Source: Bacteroidota bacterium
Lineage (GTDB): Bacteria > Bacteroidota > Bacteroidia > Bacteroidales > GCA-2748055
Length of the DNA: 64,000 bases
Direction: 5' to 3'
Assembly: GCA_024640885.1 (NCBI GenBank)
Contig: JAHEEC010000001.1
Location: 16,624 to 80,623 of the forward strand
Position numbers and translations under genes: made by a program. This document shows, in pieces, positions 50,045 to 50,395 of this stretch. The notes under the pieces were generated by a model that was not told where the DNA came from, did no database searches, and saw only the letters and a program-made list of their open reading frames with translations. Positions within the stretch are counted from its first letter, which is position 1. Every line of letters starts with the position of its first letter.

Positions 50045-50141
50045 GTTATTGAGAAGGGGTAAGAGATTAGGCTCAGCGATCCCCTGGCAACCCGCCACTT
50101 GGCGAAGGTGCCAAAACCTAACCCGAAAGGGAGATAATAAC
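50045..50141 (+). ncRNA. SAM-I (S-box) riboswitch
   Basis: P1 GTTATT (50045-50050) pairs with AATAAC (50136-50141); conserved CCCCTGGCAACCC, GAAGGTGCCAAAACCT and GGGAGATAAT segments; upstream of metY-metX-metH. Confidence 0.88.
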
Positions 50142-50154
50142 AAAAAAGAATGCC

Positions 50155-50220
50155 ATGAAGAGAAAGAGTTTCATCGCGCCCATGTTGCCTATGTCCATGC
50201 CCTGGCCGGAGCTTCGGTAA
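50155..50220 (+). CDS. Candidate Met-rich short leader ORF (21 codons)
   Basis: ATG AAG AGA AAG AGT TTC ATC GCG CCC ATG TTG CCT ATG TCC ATG CCC TGG CCG GAG CTT CGG TAA = MKRKSFIAPMLPMSMPWPELR; between riboswitch and metY. No expression evidence. Confidence 0.4.
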   Translation: MKRKSFIAPMLPMSMPWPELR

Positions 50221-50395
50221 GGGTGCTGCAAAGACATTGGCTGTAGCATAGAAGTTTCCGCAAAAAAATCAGGGATTTACAACATGTAAATCACGGTAAT
50301 GGTATTATATGGCCGGGGCAATTCATTTCCTGGCGACCTCATACCGGCTTCACCCCTGAAAATTTTATCAAAATTTAACTTTAAATCAACGAGTC

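Follow-up and report, generated by a model that had tools for sequence, protein, structure and literature searches.

The metY gene examined here begins 252 nt behind a SAM-I riboswitch, close to the roughly 250 nt originally estimated, and the question that this locus raises is what the aptamer acts on and what occupies the gap. The locus lies in a window of 64,000 nucleotides from a Bacteroidales (Bacteroidota) genome, which is the whole stretch of DNA that was analysed (Table 1). The aptamer belongs to SAM-I by both sequence and structure, its 72.7 bits lying well above the 44.4-bit gathering score of RF00162; the original prediction had identified the riboswitch correctly, and its bounds of 50045-50141 were corrected to those in Table 1. 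The Rfam search returned this aptamer as the sole RF00162 match of the genome. As is usual for the family, it stands in front of genes for methionine and SAM metabolism, identified with NCBIfam models as metY, metX and metH, which follow in the same orientation, separated by short gaps. Upstream, TTTG and TATATTTG form a putative promoter, which was called by reference to TTTG / TAnnTTTG, a pattern that we take to be the consensus of Bacteroides promoters. The same pair is found upstream of the leader in two relatives (L015 and L294), and a transcript from this putative start would begin approximately 20 nt ahead of the aptamer.

Two further genes lie upstream on the forward strand. About 3 kb ahead of metY, positions 46299-47423 encode another member of the PLP-dependent cystathionine gamma-lyase / methionine gamma-lyase superfamily, for which none of the NCBIfam models shown reaches its cut-off. 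Directly upstream of the leader, positions 48999-49895 encode a 298-aa protein with no match in an NCBIfam search; in the relatives L144 and L150, metY is preceded by similar ORFs.

Table 1. Features of the metY-metX-metH locus, in window coordinates.
Feature	Position	Strand	Basis and details
Putative promoter, -33 element TTTG (Bacteroidota type)	49984-49987	+	Sequence
Putative promoter, -7 element TATATTTG	50008-50015	+	Sequence, inference
SAM-I (S-box) riboswitch aptamer	50043-50143	+	Rfam RF00162, 72.7 bits, E 4.3e-15, full length 1-108
Leader peptide ORF MKRKSFIAPMLPMSMPWPELR, 21 codons	50155-50220	+	ORF listing; kept in relatives
Putative regulatory codon cluster M-L-P-M-S-M	50182-50199	+	GCCTATG-NNN-ATG in nearly all genus and family members
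Predicted hairpin overlapping the leader stop codon	50207-50260	+	Outer arms 50207-50215/50251-50259, inner arms 50223-50229/50243-50249; covariation, predicted fold
Hairpin GATTTAC-AACAT-GTAAATC	50274-50292	+	Originally predicted; present, not conserved
metY, O-acetylhomoserine sulfhydrylase, first regulated gene	50396-51697	+	NCBIfam TIGR01326, 661 bits (cut-off 495)
metX, homoserine O-acetyltransferase	51701-52816	+	NCBIfam NF001209, 331.4 bits (cut-off 331)
metH, methionine synthase	52850-56533	+	NCBIfam NF007024, 2009 bits (cut-off 1497)

An Rfam search of the gap between aptamer and metY, carried to an E-value of 10, gave no credible second RNA family. The gap contains a 21-codon ORF with four Met codons, the start included, and its peptide was recovered exactly as originally predicted; it starts 11 nt behind the P1 stem of the aptamer, and metY follows 175 nt after its stop. 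We consider it likely that the two elements form a two-sensor leader, in which the SAM-I aptamer controls whether a leader peptide is translated, and the Met/Cys codons of that peptide report the supply of charged tRNA. The metYXH mRNA leader would thus carry two sensors in series. SAM binding, through formation of P1, would most likely block initiation on the leader ORF and not on metY, because the aptamer ends so shortly before the start of the ORF. When charged Met-tRNA (or, in relatives, Cys-tRNA) is short, a translating ribosome would slow at the tail codons, and where it stands with respect to the hairpin over the leader stop codon would decide metY expression. Expression should then peak at low SAM with uncharged Met-tRNA. 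The combination of SAM sensing by RNA and Met-tRNA sensing by a leader peptide had been suggested for this locus before, and comparison with relatives supports it, since they keep the ORF at an unchanged start position and with Met in its tail.

Relatives from the same genus and family carry an ORF at the same place with the core LPM(S/G)M (MNRKNFTRPTLPMSMSGPKLR, MKKSTSTCLLLPMGMGRKLIV, MKNIAFTMPLLPMGME and MKRFTINHWDEAFDPTAWRNLTMPLLPMSMCKTELR). The stretch ahead of this core varies in sequence and length, and the frame stays open throughout. As the frame is conserved, the frameshifts or stops in relatives that had been named beforehand as refuting a leader peptide are absent. The Pro codon ahead of Met is CCT in every LPM, MPM or PPM core printed, both in the window (50185-50199) and in relatives, and ATGCCTATGTGCATG is identical across several families, a degree of conservation that goes beyond what the amino acids require.

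For the wider comparison, RF00162 searches of the order (115 of 393 genomes) and of the class (247 of 345 genomes), together with named metY loci, yielded 173 distinct parseable aptamer loci. These loci were processed by a bulk Python scan that recognises aptamers and genes by simple motifs, so that some ORFs may be mis-assigned. The best tail of every locus was set against those of 200 dinucleotide-shuffled versions of its stretch, to which an identical selection rule was applied, with p ≤ 0.05 as the threshold. The Met+Cys content of the tail exceeded that of the shuffles at 68/87 metY, 16/20 aspartokinase and 3/31 metH loci, counts that are not independent, the loci being related; with near-duplicates removed, 42 of 57 metY loci and 6 of 7 aspartokinase loci did so. 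The window locus taken alone gave a p value of 0.025. Met or Cys accounts for 33-51% at every one of the nine final codons, and for less than 10% at most positions upstream of codon -12. The enrichment is specific to the reading frame, with a mean of 4.46 Met+Cys in the last 14 codons, as compared with means of 0.44 and 2.21 when the two alternative frames are read. Between close pairs of loci, residues changed at 25 of 162 tail codons versus 144 of 422 body codons, and the tail is therefore the constrained part. The leader ORF is not a product of chance: genus and family members preserve both its frame and its Met motif, and across the phylum its tail lies above shuffles. Two hallmarks of an amino acid attenuator are present: a conserved short ORF lies between the putative promoter and the operon, and it is enriched, in frame and at most metY and aspartokinase loci, in codons for the amino acid of the pathway.

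Where metY or aspartokinase follows a SAM-I aptamer, an ORF from this start position usually has Met and/or Cys codons at its end, with tails such as LPMSM, LPMGM, PLMPMCMR, PRMR, MRMRM, KHMFMRCMRSM and CICMCCCCC. Such tails were found in about 18 family-level groups of the order alone, as read by hand from the table of loci, and include PLMPMCMRR, EMPMCMARIKSV, ATMPRMR, KHMFMRCMRSMLS and MDMRGMRM. Named Sphingobacteriales and Cytophagales also carry Met/Cys-rich tails behind SAM-I, and those of Mucilaginibacter, Thermonema and Sphingobacterium read CICMCCCCC, CMCMCYCC, MMQMCCCCM and MSMRMRMHTHLPTC, with similar ones in Pedobacter. Distant relatives replace Met with Cys or mix the two, as a sensor of sulfur amino acids would be expected to do. 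The SAM-I-metY loci L044 and L053 have a weak Met/Cys tail, and L252 and L262 have no such ORF. In one genus of the order, the SAM-I leader ORFs of L067, L098 and L102 end in pure Cys runs (CCCCCCC, CCCFCCC), and a further SAM-I-metY leader, L061, which shares a genome with one of them, has the ending IPRMR; this looks like codon-level specialisation between paralogous leaders.

The main competitor to codon sensing is an arrest peptide, in which the nascent LPM(S/G/C)M sequence would stall the ribosome in response to a metabolite such as SAM or Met, and not to the charging of tRNA. We regard this as unlikely, though it is the alternative that fares best. LPM(S/G/C)M is kept in its residues and even in its codons, with CCT for Pro, across several families; codon sensing alone would not explain the choice of CCT, which leaves room for an arrest peptide. 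Against this, the tails of other families (PRMR, MRMRM, KHMFMRCMRSM, CICMCCCCC) have no motif in common apart from their content of Met and Cys, and pure Cys runs such as CCCFCCC occur before metY.

What the aptamer controls is suggested by the position of the starts behind it. The leader ORF starts 71-78 nt (middle half of the loci) behind the CAACC of the aptamer. When metH, or in one case metY, follows directly, its own start lies 65-81 nt from CAACC, with one more case at 101 nt. Because the starts of leader ORFs and of directly controlled genes coincide, the target of the aptamer seems to be any ORF that begins at this position. Barrick and Breaker described SAM-I riboswitches that sequester the ribosome-binding site by incorporating it in the 3' side of P1 (PMC2258182). 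The simplest reading of the sequences is that SAM binding most likely blocks initiation on the leader ORF.

The two elements are also separable. A leader ORF precedes metY without an aptamer at four loci of the genus of the window or its closest relatives (L015, L028, L148 and L294); for three of these, RF00162 has no match in the genomes concerned (G012, G001 and G014 for L015, L028 and L294, respectively), which are incomplete assemblies in which the leader regions are covered. Conversely, L017 from the same family has metY directly behind an aptamer with no leader ORF. That each element can stand alone argues that each senses something. Such an ORF is uncommon at metY loci that lack an aptamer, with no more than a handful of cases among about thirty.

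These observations bear on a plain SAM-I riboswitch followed by a long inert spacer, with the ORF incidental. In relatives an aptamer is apparently sufficient by itself for metH, and for metY at L017; for the window, we consider this explanation very improbable, as it is contradicted by the tail statistics together with the control genes and by the coincidence of start sites, and as leaders persist where the aptamer is missing. Equally improbable in our judgment is that the AUG-rich stretch provides decoy or reinitiation starts that trap ribosomes, without any codon sensor. AUG repeats do make up many tails (ATGCGCAGCATGCGC), but runs of Cys codons free of AUG occupy the same place in many relatives, and the in-frame content of Met+Cys greatly exceeds that of the other frames. 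Clusters of Met and Cys can bind copper, which is all that speaks for a functional small protein, such as a Met/Cys-rich metal binder that happens to sit in a riboswitch operon, and this is the least probable account, given that the bodies diverge freely, that ORF lengths range from about 14 to 50 codons, that Pfam and NCBIfam searches gave no credible family and that the position is fixed behind the aptamer.

Returning to the two-sensor leader, we examined the structures behind the ORF. The hairpin overlapping the leader stop codon has 94.8% of its cells paired in six members of the genus, compared with 30-50% when slid, and 7 of its 16 pairs have changed on both sides, indicating covariation. 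Other members of the genus, those with an LPMGM core, are without this hairpin in the same form. Across the phylum, the first 85 nt behind the stop fold more stably than their shuffles (mean z -1.83, versus -0.25 in coding sequence), and the 5' arms of the predicted stems peak 0-9 nt behind the stop of the ORF. A ribosome that occupies the Met/Cys codons or the stop would be predicted to interfere with these arms. Alignment of the Mucilaginibacter sequences behind the ORF gave only a weak common stem. The second hairpin, at 50274-50292, which had been noted earlier as part of a leader-peptide-like arrangement, does exist, and the 33-nt stretch containing it folds better than its shuffles (z -3.1). 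It has no counterpart in the relatives L003 and L005, and the structure that is conserved is instead the hairpin at 50207-50260; we rejected 50274-50292 as the expression platform because it is not conserved, and it is probably not part of the mechanism.

The output step is probably not an intrinsic terminator. Among 86 leaders, 11 had an intrinsic terminator behind the ORF as against 7.8 expected from shuffles, in agreement with the earlier failure to see a canonical one, and the sole terminator-like site found sits upstream of the aptamer. No pair of alternative terminator and antiterminator structures was found. Rho-dependent termination, mRNA stability and an effect on translation are the candidates; a small excess of C over G behind the ORF (0.062, compared with 0.019 in genes) gives a hint of Rho sites. 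We also considered sequestration of the gene start that is relieved by a ribosome on the tail, and rejected it, as masked folding left the predicted accessibility unchanged. Long-range pairing between the run of Met/Cys codons and the downstream leader was likewise set aside, being limited to single loci (L162, L166, L193 and L200) with an overall p of 0.18.

Taken singly, the SAM riboswitch and the leader-peptide attenuator are textbook mechanisms. The locus shares with attenuators of the trp, his and thr type a short ORF upstream of a biosynthetic operon, codons for the product near its end and RNA structure after it; it differs in showing no excess of terminators, in being combined with a riboswitch and in mixing Met and Cys across the phylum. 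Because no terminator and antiterminator alternatives were found, the leader is classified only as working like an amino acid leader-peptide attenuator. The polycysteine attenuators of mycobacteria act, to our knowledge, without a riboswitch, and their short ORFs are reportedly leaderless, going by the title of Canestrari et al. 2020. They also differ from the window, whose leader ORF has Met codons, no Cys and hence no run of Cys codons; the likeness lies in the Cys-codon runs of short ORFs in some relatives (L098, L190). In the mycobacterial case, such runs regulate the downstream operon, according to the passage that cites this work in PMC9094748. The aptamer itself is an ordinary SAM-I, full-length and placed before a Met operon, and a ribosome-binding site in the 3' strand of P1 is a known mode of action (PMC2258182); the difference is that a leader peptide, and not a biosynthetic gene, occupies the regulated position. 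The metA leader of Sinorhizobium meliloti combines a SAM-II riboswitch, an in-frame alternative start and a terminator (PMC9373788). It resembles the present locus in having a SAM riboswitch that acts on translation and a start codon ahead of the main start, but belongs to SAM-II and has no Met-rich leader peptide (PMC9373788). Within Bacteroidota, tetQ of Bacteroides is controlled by a translational attenuator (cited in PMC5418344), likewise a ribosome-sensing leader at the level of translation, which responds to tetracycline and is not known to involve an aptamer.

In the open-access papers that we searched, we found no description of a SAM riboswitch and a leader peptide in series in Bacteroidota. 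Both parts are of known kinds, and their serial use and the exchange of Met for Cys look new. We see about an even chance that the arrangement is a phylum-wide design of Bacteroidota, in which SAM-I gates a Met/Cys leader peptide, SAM and tRNA charging are combined without an intrinsic terminator, and lineages swap Met and Cys and gain or lose sensors. If so, it would account for the many SAM-I riboswitches of Bacteroidota whose expression platform is unclear, add many unannotated translated ORFs and constitute a natural gate with two inputs, in which the end product SAM is kept apart from the charging of Met/Cys tRNA. The recurrence of the pairing suggests that Bacteroidota read the supply of sulfur amino acids twice in one mRNA leader. 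Lineages in which Met has given way to Cys, or in which one sensor has been lost, would serve as ready-made natural experiments.

Similar ORFs occur in other settings. Three metY loci without SAM-I, from other families of the order (L027, L029 and L030), are preceded by short ORFs rich in Met or Cys (for example, an ORF ending in SVRMCCCKH, and MMNIKTYLLVPPFWMQDMLMLLG), and these are possible stand-alone leaders for sulfur amino acids. ORFs ending in MRMR or RMRGMM are also present in a few long-gap metH leaders (L087, L097, L095 and L122), and the two-part arrangement may thus extend to metH.
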